63,417 nt of DNA, taken from positions 1 through 63,417 of the forward strand of contig JAFXHE010000018.1 of the NCBI GenBank assembly GCA_017536555.1. The letters are read 5' to 3'. Shown one piece after another: positions 9,599 through 14,793 of the stretch (its first letter is position 1; each line of letters begins with the position of its first letter). The stretch is from Alistipes sp. (GTDB lineage Bacteria; Bacteroidota; Bacteroidia; Bacteroidales; Rikenellaceae). The notes under the pieces are model-generated. The model saw only the letters and a list, made by a program, of their open reading frames with translations, did not search any database and had not been told where the DNA came from. Made by a program: the position numbers and the translations under genes.

Positions 9599-10831
9599 AT
9601 GAAAGAGGCTATTGCAATACTTACGGGTGGCGGTCCTGCCCCCGGTATGAACACCGTTGTTGGCTCTGTTGCCAAGACCTTTTTGGCGAAGGGCTATCGT
9701 GTAATTGGCTTACACTATGGCTATTCAGGTCTTTTCAACCCCAATCCCCGTTACGAGGATCTCGATATGTTCCGTGTGGACTACATCTTCAATCAGGGTG
9801 GTTCTTACCTTACTATGAGCCGCTTTAAGCCCACCGATGAGGACTTCGAGAAGAACTTCAACCTCGACTTCTTCAAGGATAACAACGTTAAGTTGTTGGT
9901 GACAGTGGGTGGTGATGACACCGCATCTACTGCTAACCGTATCGCAAAGTTCCTCGAGAAGAAGCAGTACTCAATTGCTAATATCCACGTTCCCAAGACT
10001 ATCGACAACGACCTTCCTTTGCCCGCAGGTATGCCCACATTTGGCTACCAGTCAGCAAAGAATGCAGGTGCAGTTATTGGTCGCGCCGTATACAACGACG
10101 CTCGTACATCTGCTAACTGGTTTGTAGTGGCAGCAATGGGTCGCTCGGCAGGTCACCTTGCATTTGGTATTGCATCGGCTTGCCACTATCCTATGATCAT
10201 CATCCCCGAGATGTTCAATAAGACAAAGATTACTATCGACAAGATTATCAGCCTTATAGTATCGGCCATCATCAAGCGTAAGTTGCTCAATATGGACTAT
10301 GGTGCTGCAATGGTGTCGGAGGGTGTATTCCACGCGCTCGACCAGGAGGAGATACTCAAGTCGGGTATTCAGTTCTCTTATGATGACCACGGTCACCCCG
10401 AGTTGGGTAAGGTGTCGAAGGCAGAGATGTTCAACACGCTGCTTGAGAAGCGTTGCAAGGCTCTCGGCTTGAAGGTTAAGTCTCGTCCCGTAGAGATTGG
10501 CTACGAGGTACGTTGCCAGACTCCTTGCGCCTTTGACCTTGTATACTGCTCACAGCTCGGTATGGGTGTATATAAGCTCTTTGCAGAGGGTAAGACAGGT
10601 TGTATGGTATACATCAGCCAGGAGGGTTACGTGTCACCGCTCTATCTGAAGGATTTGCAGGATCCCGAGACTGGTAAGATTCCTCCTCGTTTGGTGGATA
10701 TCAATGCCGATAAGATTCACCAGGTTATCGACAACCTTATGCACTATATCACACCCGCTGACTATGAGGCTGCAAAGGCGTATGTCCCCAACCCTGAGGA
10801 GTATGACTTTAAGAAGATTCTCAACTGGTAA
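9599..10831 (+). CDS. Phosphofructokinase, probably pyrophosphate-dependent
   Basis: Glycolytic enzyme phosphorylating fructose 6-phosphate. Family landmarks are the N-terminal GGGPAPGMN loop, VGGDDTAST at 103-111, PKTIDND at 132-138, and MGRSAGHLA. In ATP-dependent enzymes the donor site has GGDG and G-x-IDND; here the second position is Asp (Asp107) and a Lys precedes TIDND (Lys133). In this family that pairing goes with pyrophosphate as the phosphoryl donor. The 410-residue length also fits a PPi-type enzyme rather than the 320-residue bacterial PfkA. With PFOR and GAPDH nearby it indicates an energy-sparing fermentative glycolysis. Donor use is inferred from residues only. Confidence 0.92.
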   Translation: MKEAIAILTGGGPAPGMNTVVGSVAKTFLAKGYRVIGLHYGYSGLFNPNPRYEDLDMFRVDYIFNQGGSYLTMSRFKPTDEDFEKNFNLDFFKDNNVKLLVTVGGDDTASTANRIAKFLEKKQYSIANIHVPKTIDNDLPLPAGMPTFGYQSAKNAGAVIGRAVYNDARTSANWFVVAAMGRSAGHLAFGIASACHYPMIIIPEMFNKTKITIDKIISLIVSAIIKRKLLNMDYGAAMVSEGVFHALDQEEILKSGIQFSYDDHGHPELGKVSKAEMFNTLLEKRCKALGLKVKSRPVEIGYEVRCQTPCAFDLVYCSQLGMGVYKLFAEGKTGCMVYISQEGYVSPLYLKDLQDPETGKIPPRLVDINADKIHQVIDNLMHYITPADYEAAKAYVPNPEEYDFKKILNW

Positions 10832-10859
10832 GATGTTGTGTTAAGGGTCTCCCTGAATA

Positions 10860-10887
10860 AAAGCCACCGATTATGGTGGCTTTTTTT
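10860..10887 (+). terminator. Terminator after the phosphofructokinase gene
   Basis: AAAGCCACC (10860-10868) pairs with GGTGGCTTT (10875-10883), 6-base loop, in a run of seven T. Confidence 0.9.
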
Positions 10888-10890
10888 GTT

Positions 10891-10950
10891 GTAGGGCGAG
10901 ATAGGGTGAGATAGGGCGAGACAGGGCGAGACAGGACGAGATAGGTTATT
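10891..10950. repeat. 10-bp tandem repeats, about 5.5 copies
   Basis: Five exactly spaced 10-base units from 10891: GTAGGGCGAG, ATAGGGTGAG, ATAGGGCGAG, ACAGGGCGAG, ACAGGACGAG, then a partial ATAGG. The unit reads RYAGGGCGAG. Related repeats of opposite polarity occur at 24381-24410. It lies in the 460-base gap between phosphofructokinase and metY, just after a terminator. Confidence 0.9.
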
Positions 10951-11020
10951 CCCTATATTGCCATATTTAGCCCTGCACTCCTGCGCTCCCGCCCTCGATG
11001 TTAACTATTATCCTCTTTTA

Positions 11021-11052
11021 TTTGGCGATTTGAAATTTTTTTATTAATTTTG
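11021..11052 (+). promoter_or_regulatory. Predicted promoter of the metY-metX-hom operon
   Basis: TTTG (11021-11024), a 20-base spacer, TAATTTTG (11045-11052). Transcription would begin near 11057-11060, giving a leader of about 235 bases before metY, which carries the Met-rich small reading frame. Confidence 0.68.
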
Positions 11053-11072
11053 CCTAAACTTTTAACAACTAT

Positions 11073-11159
11073 ATGGCTTCGCAGAATAACATAACGACTT
11101 TAGCAACATCGCCAATGGTGTTTATGGAGGATATTATGTCTATGCGAATGTGCCGTTAG
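11073..11159 (+). CDS. Methionine-rich leader peptide upstream of metY
   Basis: A 28-codon frame, ATG at 11073 to TAG at 11157-11159, starting about 15 bases after the predicted transcription start. Its C-terminal half reads PMVFMEDIMSMRMCR: five Met in twelve residues (codons 15, 18, 22, 24, 26), six Met in all, next to a Cys. It precedes three genes for methionine synthesis from homoserine and a sulfur donor. Amino-acid-biased leader peptides placed like this normally sense charging of the matching tRNA by ribosome stalling. I infer that role here; no protein family supports it. The alternative is a chance small frame, made less likely by the Met cluster and the placement. Confidence 0.6.
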   Translation: MASQNNITTLATSPMVFMEDIMSMRMCR

Positions 11160-11197
11160 GCACCATACTTCACACCGTGCGATTACGTATCGCATAG
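11140..11197 (+). promoter_or_regulatory. Possible attenuator: mutually exclusive RNA pairings in the met leader
   Basis: CTATGCGA (11140-11147), inside the Met codon cluster, is exactly complementary to TCGCATAG (11190-11197). The latter half also belongs to a local hairpin GTGCGAT (11177-11183)/ATCGCAT (11189-11195), so the two structures exclude each other. A third small hairpin, GTGCC/GGCAC (11150-11163), spans the leader stop codon. I see no U-rich run after these, so a classical intrinsic terminator is not evident; control could act through Rho or through translation of metY. Confidence 0.42.
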
Positions 11198-11292
11198 CAC
11201 CCTTGAGTGCACTCCAAACCCCCATATTTTATAGCGTACAACTCTTCCACAAGAGGAGCTAATATATTTGATTGTTTATAAATTATAGAGAT

Positions 11293-12576
11293 ATGTCAGA
11301 GAATAAACTTCACTTCGAGACCCTTCAGATACACGGTGGTTACCACGTTGATGCCTCTAACTCACGAGGTATTGCCATACATCCTACGGCAGCATACCAC
11401 TTTCCGACGTGCGACTATGCGGCAAATCTATTTACGTTGAGCGAGCCAGGTAACATCTATACGCGTCTGCACAACCCGACAACGGCAGCCTACGAGGAGC
11501 GTGTGGCAGCCTTATATGGCGGTGTGGGTGCGCTGGCTACGGCATCTGGTATGTCGGCAATACTGCTCACAATAACTGCTCTTGCAAATGCAGGGCAGAA
11601 TATCGTGGCTTCGCCATACCTCTATGGTGGCACACACAATCAGTTTGTCATATCGCTGCGCAATGTCGGCATTGAGTGCCGTTTGGCGAAGAGTGACTGT
11701 GCCGAGGATATTGCAGAGCTTATAGACGAGAATACGCGTGCCGTGTTTGTTGAGTCTATGGGTAACCCAACCTGCCGTGTGGCGGATATCGAGGCTTTGG
11801 CACGTGTGGCACACCGCAACAATATACCACTCATTGTCGACAACACCTTTGGTGCTGGTGGCTATCTGTGTAACCCCTTTGAGTGGGGTGCTGACATCAT
11901 CACGGATTCGGCTACAAAGTGGATAAATGGACACGGTACGGCTATGGGCGGTATCATCGTCGATGGAGGTACGTTTGATTGGGGCTGTGGTAAGTTCCCC
12001 GCAATAGATGGACCCTCGGAGGGCTATCACGGTCTCAACCTGTATAAGACATTCGGCAATCAGGCGTTTATAGTGAAGTGCCGCGTGGATGGTATGCGCG
12101 ACTTTGGCTGTTGCCCCTCGTCGTTTGACTCATACCTTATGTTACTCGGCTTGGAGACCTTGTCGTTGCGCGTTAAGCACGAGGTGGAGTCTACGTATCG
12201 TCTTGCGGAGTTCTGTAAGAACCACCCCAAGATTAAGCGCGTGAGCTTTGTGGGCTTTGAGGATCACCTGAGCCACGAGTTGGCGAAGAAGTACTTCAAG
12301 ATGGGGGCATCGTCGGTAATGACCATCGAGCTACAAGGTACGCTGGAGAGCACTGTGAAGTTTGTCGAGAGCCTCAAGCTGTCGGCAAATATGACGATGA
12401 TTGGCGACTCTATATCTGTTGTCACCCACCCCGCGTCGACTACGCATAAGCAGCTCTCGGATGAGGCGAAGCAGGCTGCGGGCATTACGCCTACGCTGCT
12501 GCGCATATCGCTCGGCTTGGAGAACGTAGAGGATATTATCGCCGACTATGAGCAGGCATTAAGCCACGTGGAGTAA
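11293..12576 (+). CDS. metY: O-acetylhomoserine sulfhydrylase (aminocarboxypropyltransferase)
   Basis: PLP enzyme that makes homocysteine from O-acetylhomoserine and sulfide in the cytoplasm. The 427 residues match the family. The PLP lysine is Lys209 in DSATKWINGHGT, and ETLQIHGG and NIYTRLHNPT near the N-terminus are typical. I use the ATG at 11293 because the upstream in-frame TTG (11272) would add only a few AT-rich codons. metX overlaps its stop codon by one base, so the two enzymes that make and use O-acetylhomoserine are translationally coupled. Regulation is probably through the Met-rich leader upstream. Confidence 0.95.
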   Translation: MSENKLHFETLQIHGGYHVDASNSRGIAIHPTAAYHFPTCDYAANLFTLSEPGNIYTRLHNPTTAAYEERVAALYGGVGALATASGMSAILLTITALANAGQNIVASPYLYGGTHNQFVISLRNVGIECRLAKSDCAEDIAELIDENTRAVFVESMGNPTCRVADIEALARVAHRNNIPLIVDNTFGAGGYLCNPFEWGADIITDSATKWINGHGTAMGGIIVDGGTFDWGCGKFPAIDGPSEGYHGLNLYKTFGNQAFIVKCRVDGMRDFGCCPSSFDSYLMLLGLETLSLRVKHEVESTYRLAEFCKNHPKIKRVSFVGFEDHLSHELAKKYFKMGASSVMTIELQGTLESTVKFVESLKLSANMTMIGDSISVVTHPASTTHKQLSDEAKQAAGITPTLLRISLGLENVEDIIADYEQALSHVE

Positions 12577-13592
12577 TGAGCAGAGTGTATCGACATACAT
12601 CGCCCGTAGAGCTGGAGTCGGGAGCTATCCTTCCAGAGGTGGAGATTGCCTACGATACCTTTGGTGAGTTGTCCGAAGAGCGCGACAATGTTATATGGGT
12701 ATGTCACGCGCTAACGGCAAACTCCGATGTTGCCGACTGGTGGCCACACACCGTTGAGCAGGGGCGTTTTCTTGACCCCGCGCGCTACTTTGTGGTGTGC
12801 GCCAACTTCCTCGGCTCGCACTACGGCACAACATCGCCACTGTCGATAAACCCCGCGACGGGCAAGAAGTGGTATTACGACTTCCCGCGTATCACCGTGC
12901 GCGATATGGTAAAGTGCCACAGAGTGTTGGCAGAGCATCTTGGCATCAAGCGTGTGAAGATGCTTATAGGTAGCTCCATCGGCGGCTTTCAGTGTATGGA
13001 GTGGGCTATTGAGGAGCCTGACTTCGCCGAGAATGTGGCACTCATAGCTACCACCACCTGCTCGGAGCCGTGGGCGGCAGCGTTCAATGAGTCGCAGCGT
13101 ATGGCGATACGTCTTGACCGCACGTGGGGCGAGATGTCAGATGATGCGGGTCTCGACGGTATGGCTGTTGCGCGCAGCATAGCCCTGATGAGTTATCGTG
13201 GAGGCGCAGCATATAACGCCACGCAGCAGGAGTTGGAGCACGCCGAGGAGGTGTCGTTTGAGCGTCGCGCACATAGCTACCAGCGGTATCAGGGCGAGAA
13301 GCTGCGTCGCAGGTTTAATGCCTTGTCGTATTACCGTCTTACGGAGGCTGTCGACTCGCATAACATTGCGCGTGGTCGTGGCTCTATCAGAGAGGCTCTT
13401 GAGCGCATCAAGGCGCGTGTGCTGGTTGTGGCAATTTCGTCGGACATACTCTTCCCTGTCGAGGCGCACCAGCCACTGCGTGACCATATAGCCGATGTGG
13501 AGTACCACCTCATAGAGTCGGAGTTTGGTCACGACGGCTTCTTGGTTGAATATGATAAACTAAATACAATTATACAGAACTTTTTAGAATAA
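12576..13592 (+). CDS. metX: Homoserine O-acetyltransferase
   Basis: Alpha/beta-hydrolase-fold enzyme transferring acetyl from acetyl-CoA to homoserine, giving the substrate of MetY. The nucleophile elbow is GSSIGG with Ser134; Asp290 (SSDILFP) and His319 (FGHDGF) complete the triad. Length 338 residues. Its ATG uses the last A of the metY TAA stop. Some members of the family use succinyl-CoA; the MetX fold and the partner MetY favour acetyl. Confidence 0.94.
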   Translation: MSRVYRHTSPVELESGAILPEVEIAYDTFGELSEERDNVIWVCHALTANSDVADWWPHTVEQGRFLDPARYFVVCANFLGSHYGTTSPLSINPATGKKWYYDFPRITVRDMVKCHRVLAEHLGIKRVKMLIGSSIGGFQCMEWAIEEPDFAENVALIATTTCSEPWAAAFNESQRMAIRLDRTWGEMSDDAGLDGMAVARSIALMSYRGGAAYNATQQELEHAEEVSFERRAHSYQRYQGEKLRRRFNALSYYRLTEAVDSHNIARGRGSIREALERIKARVLVVAISSDILFPVEAHQPLRDHIADVEYHLIESEFGHDGFLVEYDKLNTIIQNFLE

Positions 13593-13611
13593 CAGCTTAA
13601 AATATAGCCGT

Positions 13612-14793
13612 ATGAAAAATTTGAATATTGGTCTTTTCGGCTTTGGTAACGTTGGTCGCGGTCTGTACGACGTGCTAAAGCGCATAAACTCTGATAATGT
13701 ACACATCAAGCGTATCTGTGTGCGCAACATTGAAAAGGAGCGTGGCGTTGCTGCCAACTTCACGTCAAATCCCGATGATATCTTCAATGACAGCGATATT
13801 AACCTTATCGTGGAGGTTATTGACGATGCCGATGCCGCATACGATATTGTTAAGCGTGCATTGAAGAGCCGTATCCCCGTTGTGTCGGGTAATAAGAAGA
13901 TGCTTGGTCACCATATCATTGAGCTTATCGACCTTCAGGAGCAGTATAACACAGCACTGTTGTATGATGCCTCTGCGTGTGGTAGTATTCCCGTTATACG
14001 TAACCTCGAGGAGTACTACGACAATGACCTGCTCTGCTCCGTAAAGGGTATTCTCAATGGCTCGTCTAACTTCATCCTCTCGAAGATTTTTAACGAGAAG
14101 ATGTCGTATAAGGATGCGCTGAAACTTGCGCAGGACTTGGGCTTTGCCGAGAGTAACCCTACGCTCGATATCGACGGTTGGGACTCGCTATTTAAGCTCA
14201 TTATTATCACTATGCACGCCTTCGGTGTATATGTCGCCCCAGAGCAGATATTTACATACGGCATCTCTACTATGAACGACTCGGATATACGCTTTGCCGA
14301 GGAGAAGGATCGCCGCATAAAGCTTGTGGCACACGTCGAGAAGGTAGATGACCGCCTTATTATGTGTGTCATCCCGCAGCTTATCTCGCGCAATAAGTAC
14401 ATTTATAGTGTCGAGGATGAGTTCAATGGCGTAGTTATCAAGGGCTTGTTCTACGACAAGCAGTTTATGTTTGGTCGCGGTGCTGGTGGTCACCCCACAG
14501 GCTCGGCAGTGTTGAGCGATATCACCGCTTGCGCCTATAACTACCGCTATGAGTATAAGAAACGTAACGACTCGGTATTGCCCAAGTATACTACCGACCA
14601 CATCTTCAGAGTATATTTCCGCTATAAGACAGCCGAGCAGCGTAACCTACTCAACTTCCTCAAGGTGCGCGAGCAGTACTCGTCGGAGGAGTATAACTAC
14701 ATTGTGGGAGATGTCTCTATCGCCAATCTTAAGGCGCATCAGGAGGAGCTGCGTACGGCAGATTGCTTCGTTGCAGCATACCCCTTTGATTAA
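13612..14793 (+). CDS. hom: Homoserine dehydrogenase
   Basis: Reduces aspartate semialdehyde to homoserine with NAD(P)H. The N-terminal Rossmann fold starts at once (GLFGFGNVGRG), the catalytic domain carries GILNGSSNFILSKI, and AGGHPTGSAVLSDI is the substrate-domain signature. At 393 residues it is a stand-alone enzyme, not the aspartokinase fusion (ThrA) common in Bacteroidetes, so a second fused copy may exist elsewhere in the genome. Twenty bases after metX, it gives the operon its own supply of homoserine and points to methionine rather than threonine output. Confidence 0.94.
   Translation: MKNLNIGLFGFGNVGRGLYDVLKRINSDNVHIKRICVRNIEKERGVAANFTSNPDDIFNDSDINLIVEVIDDADAAYDIVKRALKSRIPVVSGNKKMLGHHIIELIDLQEQYNTALLYDASACGSIPVIRNLEEYYDNDLLCSVKGILNGSSNFILSKIFNEKMSYKDALKLAQDLGFAESNPTLDIDGWDSLFKLIIITMHAFGVYVAPEQIFTYGISTMNDSDIRFAEEKDRRIKLVAHVEKVDDRLIMCVIPQLISRNKYIYSVEDEFNGVVIKGLFYDKQFMFGRGAGGHPTGSAVLSDITACAYNYRYEYKKRNDSVLPKYTTDHIFRVYFRYKTAEQRNLLNFLKVREQYSSEEYNYIVGDVSIANLKAHQEELRTADCFVAAYPFD

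Follow-up and report, generated by a model that had tools for sequence, protein, structure and literature searches.

How is the metY-metX-hom operon of an Alistipes genome controlled, and does the short methionine-rich frame in front of it act as a sensor? In the window (the whole 63,417-nucleotide stretch of DNA analysed), the three genes span 11293-14793 on the forward strand, which also carries the promoter-like site, leader frame and hairpins described below: metY, O-acetylhomoserine sulfhydrylase (11293..12576; TIGR01326, 551 bits against a cut-off of 495), metX, homoserine O-acetyltransferase (12576..13592; TIGR01392, E 3e-104), and hom, homoserine dehydrogenase (13612..14793; PRK06349, 301 bits against a cut-off of 205). 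MetY and Hom reach the curated NCBIfam cut-offs, and MetX is a clear match below its own. From comparison with relatives, we regard it as probable that the leader in front of these genes is a ribosome-mediated methionine sensor.

The leader frame and its methionine codons

Upstream of the leader lies a phosphofructokinase-like gene (9599-10831), followed by a terminator-like site (10859-10884), a promoter-like site and then the frame itself. The promoter-like site (11021..11052), recognized by its resemblance to the consensus, consists of TTTG at 11021-11024 (-33-like) and TAATTTTG at 11045-11052, which we take to be a -7 element of the Bacteroidetes type; the ATG of the leader stands 20 nt 3′ of this element. 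TAnnTTTG was found at most 260 nt upstream of the conserved leader end (the core, below) in all 80 distinct leaders, a result that AT-rich DNA could also yield by chance. Its distance to the chosen ATG was 7-34 nt in most leaders, typically about 20, with outliers to 150. TANNTTTG is found 64 times over the whole window, where shuffles predict 33, which fits a Bacteroidetes-type promoter signature. Near-repeats of a GGGCGAGATA-like unit were seen by eye at 10895-10946, just 3′ of the terminator of the upstream gene.

The frame has 28 codons (MASQNNITTLATSPMVFMEDIMSMRMCR-stop, 11073..11159), with Met at codons 1, 15, 18, 22, 24 and 26, and is presumably translated; the coordinates and the five Met in twelve residues given for it in a preliminary description read back as claimed. 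Over up to 12 codons before the core, the 80 distinct leaders held 176 Met among 893 codons in frame. The remaining frames held 0/893 and 4/893, and 500 base-shuffled controls averaged 17.1 (sd 4.0, maximum 33); the leaders are related to each other, and thus these Met counts are not independent. The frame-specific enrichment supports the earlier claim that a Met-rich leader peptide precedes metY-metX-hom, and comparison with relatives shows this peptide to be conserved. One or more Met in addition to those of the start and the core are present in 74/80 leaders and absent from 6/80, so Met runs are not required. Very short leaders also exist (MYIFASHIMRMCR, MNLSSYIMRMCR), and MMRMCR is the sole ATG-started form in two Prevotella leaders, where a TTG start further upstream is possible. 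Together with the six leaders lacking extra Met, these two indicate that the common minimum is the fixed end and not the Met run. Many leaders carry Asn-Ile or a like pair, often AACATA, near codons 6-7 (11088-11093 in the window).

Leader-peptide transcription attenuators are known from amino acid operons of the trp, his and leu type. The window leader resembles them as a short frame enriched in the cognate amino acid that precedes the cognate biosynthetic genes, here metY, metX and hom.

A fixed leader end and its spread

A MetY search over 151 genomes of the genus gave a match in 133. We compared 110 metY upstream regions, all within the genus, comprising 30 search loci (the window's own included) and 80 loci fetched by place; they were selected through MetY and not through the leader. 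In 55/110 regions the leader ends in Met-Arg-Met-Cys-Arg-stop (DNA core GCGAATGTGCC) with a hairpin over the stop codon. In the window this core, ATGCGAATGTGCCGTTAGGCAC (11142..11163), comprises the MRMCR-stop codons and the first bases of the 3′ UTR. Another Met-rich leader, with a terminator, was found in 18/110 regions, and neither type in 37/110. The frame is therefore kept widely and not universally: the expectation that it would be conserved wherever metY is conserved agrees with the 55 regions and the 18 of sister type, and fails for the other 37. Upstream sequences were read for 15 of these leaderless regions. Four (L006, L007, L009 and L010) combine a short 5′ leader lacking the frame with a MetY about 89% identical to that of the window, and at L081, L089 and L095 another gene seems to extend up to metY. 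Leaderless regions, some with so similar a MetY, count against the sensor. One genome (G082) holds two metY copies, L006 without the leader and with a short 5′ UTR, and L031 with it.

The core ATGCGAATGTGCCGNTAG is present in 77 of the 80 distinct leaders, with N being T in 47, A in 17, C in 8 and G in 5. The three variants have CAG for the first ATG (L032), CTC for the last Arg (L033) and a TAA stop (L039); L033 and L039 have an extra base, yet their stop codon is kept and the arms are still able to form the stop hairpin. Bases fixed at the fourfold-degenerate CGA site and over the stop could belong to an RNA aptamer of a new type, merely readable as a frame. This is very improbable, given that Met enrichment is confined to one frame, that the third base of the last Arg is free in the 77 leaders, and that the extra base of L033 and L039 still leaves a stop codon.

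A family-wide core pattern, which allowed any CGN, TGY and MGN codon, matched 43/200 genomes with one match per genome, and its reversed control matched none. All 43 matches read CGA and TGC, and 42/43 end in CGN; the 43rd, L146, was rejected as a leader, being a chance match inside another gene. The nine other matches outside the genus are all upstream of metY. The order-wide core search matched 1/393 genomes, namely the window's own. In the species-level collection the core was located at 77 loci. Judged by their titles, most belong to Alistipes or to other Rikenellaceae (Tidjanibacter and Avirikenella among them), and many are from ruminant guts; Prevotella brunnea, P. ihumii, P. corporis and a single Muribaculaceae MAG were found as well. 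A locus that was fetched through the core necessarily has it; the unbiased figures are the family-wide 43/200 and the metY-anchored 55/110. By eye, metY-, metX- and hom-like frames follow the leader in P. brunnea, P. ihumii and the Muribaculaceae MAG, and no metY was found within 530 nt past the core in P. corporis. That a leader of the Rikenellaceae type is present in three cultured species of Prevotella (L164, P. brunnea; L182, P. ihumii; L200, P. corporis) suggests transfer of the leader with its operon.

A fixed end is also the mark of TnaC, an arrest leader that responds to tryptophan, with Rho-dependent termination. The likeness lies in a peptide end fixed at the stop codon (77/80 identical apart from one third base) and in the C-rich RNA behind leaders of the window's type; the window leader differs in preceding biosynthetic rather than catabolic genes and in its many Met codons, and arrest and Rho are candidates here. 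By analogy, SAM, free Met or Cys might cause nascent MRMCR to stall the ribosome, either on the stop or on the rare CGA codon, and the supply of Met codons would then not be the signal. The leader varies, down to the shortest forms above, everywhere but in its fixed last five residues and stop, and CGA stands at every family match although the pattern allowed CGN and CGA is a rare Arg codon here (27/657). The fixed Cys and the two fixed Arg codons are unexplained by Met codon supply, and a rare CGA fixed in the core is not predicted by codon counting; both count against the methionine sensor. The extra in-frame Met codons of 74/80 leaders, however, would be needless for arrest, and the sister form resembles codon-driven attenuation. 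We hold arrest to be rather unlikely, and methionine sensing by translation of the Met codons remains our preferred reading.

Hairpins behind the frame and the output step

Three hairpins can be drawn around and behind the end of the frame. HP1 (GTGCC-GTTA-GGCAC, 11150..11163) covers the stop codon and is paired in 98.9% of cells over 53 sequences, nearly without variation, so that covariation says nothing about it. RNAalifold on this alignment (A1) returned HP1 alone, and HP2 (GTGCGAT-TACGT-ATCGCAT, 11177..11195) was tested by a named structure on A1 and by loop-centred windows. The start of the HP2 loop lies mostly 22-25 nt after the stop in relatives. In 68 distinct windows from 79 leaders, 88% of HP2 cells were paired over seven positions, against 62% (maximum 67%) when 3′ arms were shuffled among sequences; over six positions the figures were 93% against 66% (maximum 71%) in a control that repeated the window choice on shuffled sequence. 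On A1, 61 cells changed on both sides and 89.3% of cells were paired, values that 0/500 shuffles reached in either case. Two of five covariation measures did not rise above shuffles (double-change pairs, where 66/500 shuffles reach the real value, and pair types, 104/500), and 7 to 15 of the 53 sequences are unpaired at each position. The local hairpin at 11177-11195 that the preliminary description had proposed is thus supported by covariation in relatives. Its loop (11184-11188 in the window) is mostly UACGC or UACGU (44/79 leaders) while the stem varies. A small third hairpin (GCAC-CCTTGA-GTGC, 11197..11210) is seen by eye in many, not all, relatives. The leader RNA as a whole is more stable than shuffles (z -2.55; 5/200 shuffles equally stable).

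The earlier proposal also had HP2 compete with a long-range pairing of CTATGCGA (11140-11147) with TCGCATAG (11190-11197). These two segments are exactly complementary over 8 bp in the window. In relatives, however, the pairing reaches 8 bp in 1/79 leaders (the window only) and 7 or 6 bp in 2/79; HP2 changes freely while the core stays fixed. A switch of this kind is extremely improbable. Other long-range pairings, of the core, the HP1 arm, HP2 or the Met run with downstream or upstream RNA, gave mean z of -0.03 to -0.33 (SE 0.10-0.14); some of these duplex scores are slightly better than shuffles and far from a conserved helix. A contact of the HP2 loop with the core or the HP1 loop was considered by eye and dropped. 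Of the Met leader with a competing RNA switch, then, the leader peptide and the local hairpin stand, and the long-range switch pairing does not. The lack of HP1 covariation, the lack of a conserved alternative pairing and the two covariation measures within shuffles count against the sensor.

A terminator is visible in the sister leaders of the same genus. All 18 combine a Met-rich peptide with an intrinsic terminator whose T run lies 19-29 nt after the stop, and in all 18 the last codons include 6-9 nt complementary to the 5′ arm of the terminator, forming an antiterminator strand. By anatomy, these sister leaders are Met attenuators, and in terminator and antiterminator strands they share the plan of the trp, his and leu systems. 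The window's clade differs from those systems in having neither an intrinsic terminator between leader and first gene nor a conserved competing antiterminator pairing at the frame end, and instead has the MRMCR-stop end with the stop hairpin. The sister-form pattern matched 24/200 family genomes against 2 for the reversed pattern, and at least its matches outside the genus look, by sequence, like chance. In another family, L228 has a Met-rich frame, then a terminator-like hairpin with a T run, ahead of a metY with 72% identity.

No terminator-like site with a U-run occurs in 11060-11300, as had been observed at the outset; the sole one in 10800-11400 is that at 10859-10884, before the promoter. 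A hairpin followed by T5 within the first 120 nt after the stop was found in 2/80 leaders of the window's type. Behind HP2 lies a C-rich, G-poor stretch (11196..11262; 21 C and 10 G of 67) that by composition is a possible Rho loading region. In 79 leaders the bases +40 to +75 after the stop have C 0.263 and G 0.105, compared with C 0.170 and G 0.159 in 110 control regions; this is composition only, and the mean C-G value of the leaders is equalled or exceeded in 14.5% of the controls, which counts against the sensor. Given the scarcity of hairpins with a T run, this composition and a metY start that is not sequestered (below), all indirect, Rho-dependent termination is a candidate output in the window's clade, at roughly even odds. 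A small hairpin (CTCTT-CCAC-AAGAG, 11242-11255) stands before metY, and several relatives have a similarly placed one by eye.

Leader translation and the hairpins might alternatively govern the access of ribosomes to metY rather than transcription. The scarcity of hairpins with T5 (2/80 here and 1/33 of the leaders behind SAM-I riboswitches described below) would fit such a translational output, and translational control is described as the commonest kind for riboswitches outside Firmicutes (PMC2258182). Against it, the start of metY is 99-266 nt past the leader stop (78 leaders where located), its sequestration by four leader segments is not supported (z 0.09 to 0.31, 54 leaders), and the sister leaders use a terminator. 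This translational route seems to us rather improbable.

According to the methionine sensor model, ribosomes would translate the leader from 11073. When charged Met-tRNA is scarce, they would be delayed at the last AUG codons ahead of the stop and hold the 5′ arm of HP1 open, and transcription would continue into metY-metX-hom. When methionine is plentiful, ribosomes would reach the UAG and leave, HP1 and HP2 would form with the C-rich RNA behind them exposed, and the transcript would then be stopped before metY, most likely through Rho. Translation, the response to methionine, the direction of the effect and Rho are all inferred here. The model is preferred because the leader end recurs in 55/110 metY regions with 18 more in terminator form; because Met is enriched in frame (176/893); because HP2 covaries, Met-pathway genes lie downstream, C exceeds G behind HP2 and the metY start is unsequestered; and because of the sister terminator/antiterminator form (18/18) and the related leaders behind SAM-I riboswitches.

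SAM-I riboswitches and a possible compound device

In a search of 159 genomes of the order, a SAM-I riboswitch was located upstream in 13 of the best 29 metY loci (the window's own aside), and in these 13 a short frame starts 4-45 nt behind the aptamer. Its tail may hold several Met (YMRMQ, SMRMRPCAQ, YMRMLLGK, FMDMRGMRM) or a single one (e.g. FMPVGL, FAIMGSN). SAM-I was found in 33/119 order genomes. The leaders behind it precede metY, metH-type (L286, L288, L296) and aspartate kinase genes (L275, L276, L287; TIGR00657 above cut-off), and a SAM-I and Met-tailed leader precedes HcyBio genes (PF01837, Pfam) at L290 and L368 (L368:1850-3028), and by resemblance at L369. At L270, L277 and L279 the metH-type gene itself starts 12-15 nt behind the aptamer.

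A mechanical rule applied to 86 SAM-I loci (34 from the order, 40 from the class and 12 from the phylum) called 37 leaders and none in 49 loci, at some of which the reason is that the main gene starts there. In the last 15 residues of the 37 leaders, Met accounts for 65/550, against 1 and 5 in the other frames and 9.1 (maximum 19) in shuffles; the order set alone gave 49/370 against 1 and 3. The phylum set showed no Met enrichment (1/45), with no Met beyond the start in 2/3 leaders. Among the nine class-level leaders, L353, L356, L358, L361 and L365 are Met/Cys-rich by eye, L332 has two Met near its end, and L328 and L357 have none beyond the start. Cys gave 35/550 in frame, and the two remaining frames gave 14 and 69. 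For the class set the in-frame count was 19/135, which exceeds shuffles (5.6, maximum 13), with 1 and 18 in the remaining frames; this Cys signal is ambiguous because another frame is equally rich. Mixed ends of Met and Cys runs (L353, L356, L358, L361; e.g. NMCMCCCC) might make such frames responsive to both of the sulfur amino acids. SAM-I leaders showed no clear gain in stability near the stop compared with further upstream (z -0.92 vs -0.68).

The codon choice of these leaders bears again on ribosome arrest. In order and class SAM-I leaders, the Arg before Met is CGA in 10/13 cases, against 44/428 background Arg codons (Fisher p 7e-8) and 1/16 background Arg-before-Met codons, which favours arrest; in the leaders that carry the core, an Arg codon preceding Met outside the core is CGA in 0/6 cases, and the fixed bases may instead serve RNA structure.

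Within the family, SAM-I is present in 4/91 genomes, and a Met leader follows in all four. Two of these precede metY-type genes and end in SMRMCL and SMRMCR; the other two have SMDMRMR tails, one before an HcyBio gene by Pfam and the other before one by resemblance. Neither the window nor its genome (G000, 79% complete) gave a match to SAM-I (RF00162). The window's leader shares with SAM-I the pathway and, elsewhere in the class, the company of comparable leaders, and differs in lacking the aptamer. The window's lineage may have lost a SAM-I aptamer of the kind that stands before comparable leaders in other Bacteroidia, and its leader would be the surviving half of a compound device. We give an even chance to the joint proposal that in Bacteroidota a SAM-I aptamer gates initiation of a Met-rich leader, perhaps Met/Cys-rich in some lineages, whose translation sets the expression of metY, metH, aspartate kinase or HcyBio genes, and that lineages have trimmed this two-input device differently: most Rikenellaceae, the window included, would be without the aptamer and retain the fixed MRMCR-stop end with HP1, and the sister group of the same genus would have the classical attenuator with an intrinsic terminator. 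The fixed MRMCR-stop end, HP1, the sister terminator form and the SAM-I riboswitch ahead of such leaders elsewhere were all missing from the preliminary description.

Bacteroid-trp RNA, which we link to trp genes from its name and the preliminary description, is like this leader a cis-regulatory RNA of Bacteroidetes, and it had no match near the window leader up to E 5; the whole window gave 0 Rfam matches at gathering score, and thus no known Rfam leader. It is Rfam family RF01692 and is listed in PMC2864571. Among comparable devices, a Xanthomonas SAM-I riboswitch is described that also senses uncharged initiator tRNA, the RNA binding the tRNA (PMC7270179); SAM and Met-tRNA are likewise sensed on one transcript, and here a translated frame would do the sensing. 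The SAM-II RNA of Sinorhizobium metA similarly has a SAM aptamer, then an upstream start codon (AUG1, in frame with metA and unused in the native context) and distant control of translation, and differs in that the available text reports no separate Met-rich frame (PMC9373788). Short frames reminiscent of leader peptides are mentioned for long 5′ UTRs of B. thetaiotaomicron, e.g. BT_4401 (PMC7366714). In the open-licence PMC literature (subscription papers lie outside this scope), neither a Met leader-peptide attenuator in Bacteroidetes nor a SAM-I riboswitch with a Met leader was found described, and the string MRMCR occurs there in five papers with unrelated titles. Neither PMC2258182 nor PMC9481103 uses the term 'leader peptide', and 'Bacteroid' does not occur in PMC2965389.

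Bacteroidota are a dominant gut phylum for whose methionine sensing little was found in that literature, and the leader offers a testable sensor with a clear codon signature. For studies of ribosome stalling, the fixed MRMCR-stop end and its rare CGA codon give a defined target. The control frame also forms a natural series: it may follow a SAM aptamer, be joined to an intrinsic terminator, stand without either, or have been lost. Such a series lets one ask by what route a regulatory logic comes to switch its output step, and in what way a riboswitch and a leader peptide act together on a single transcript.
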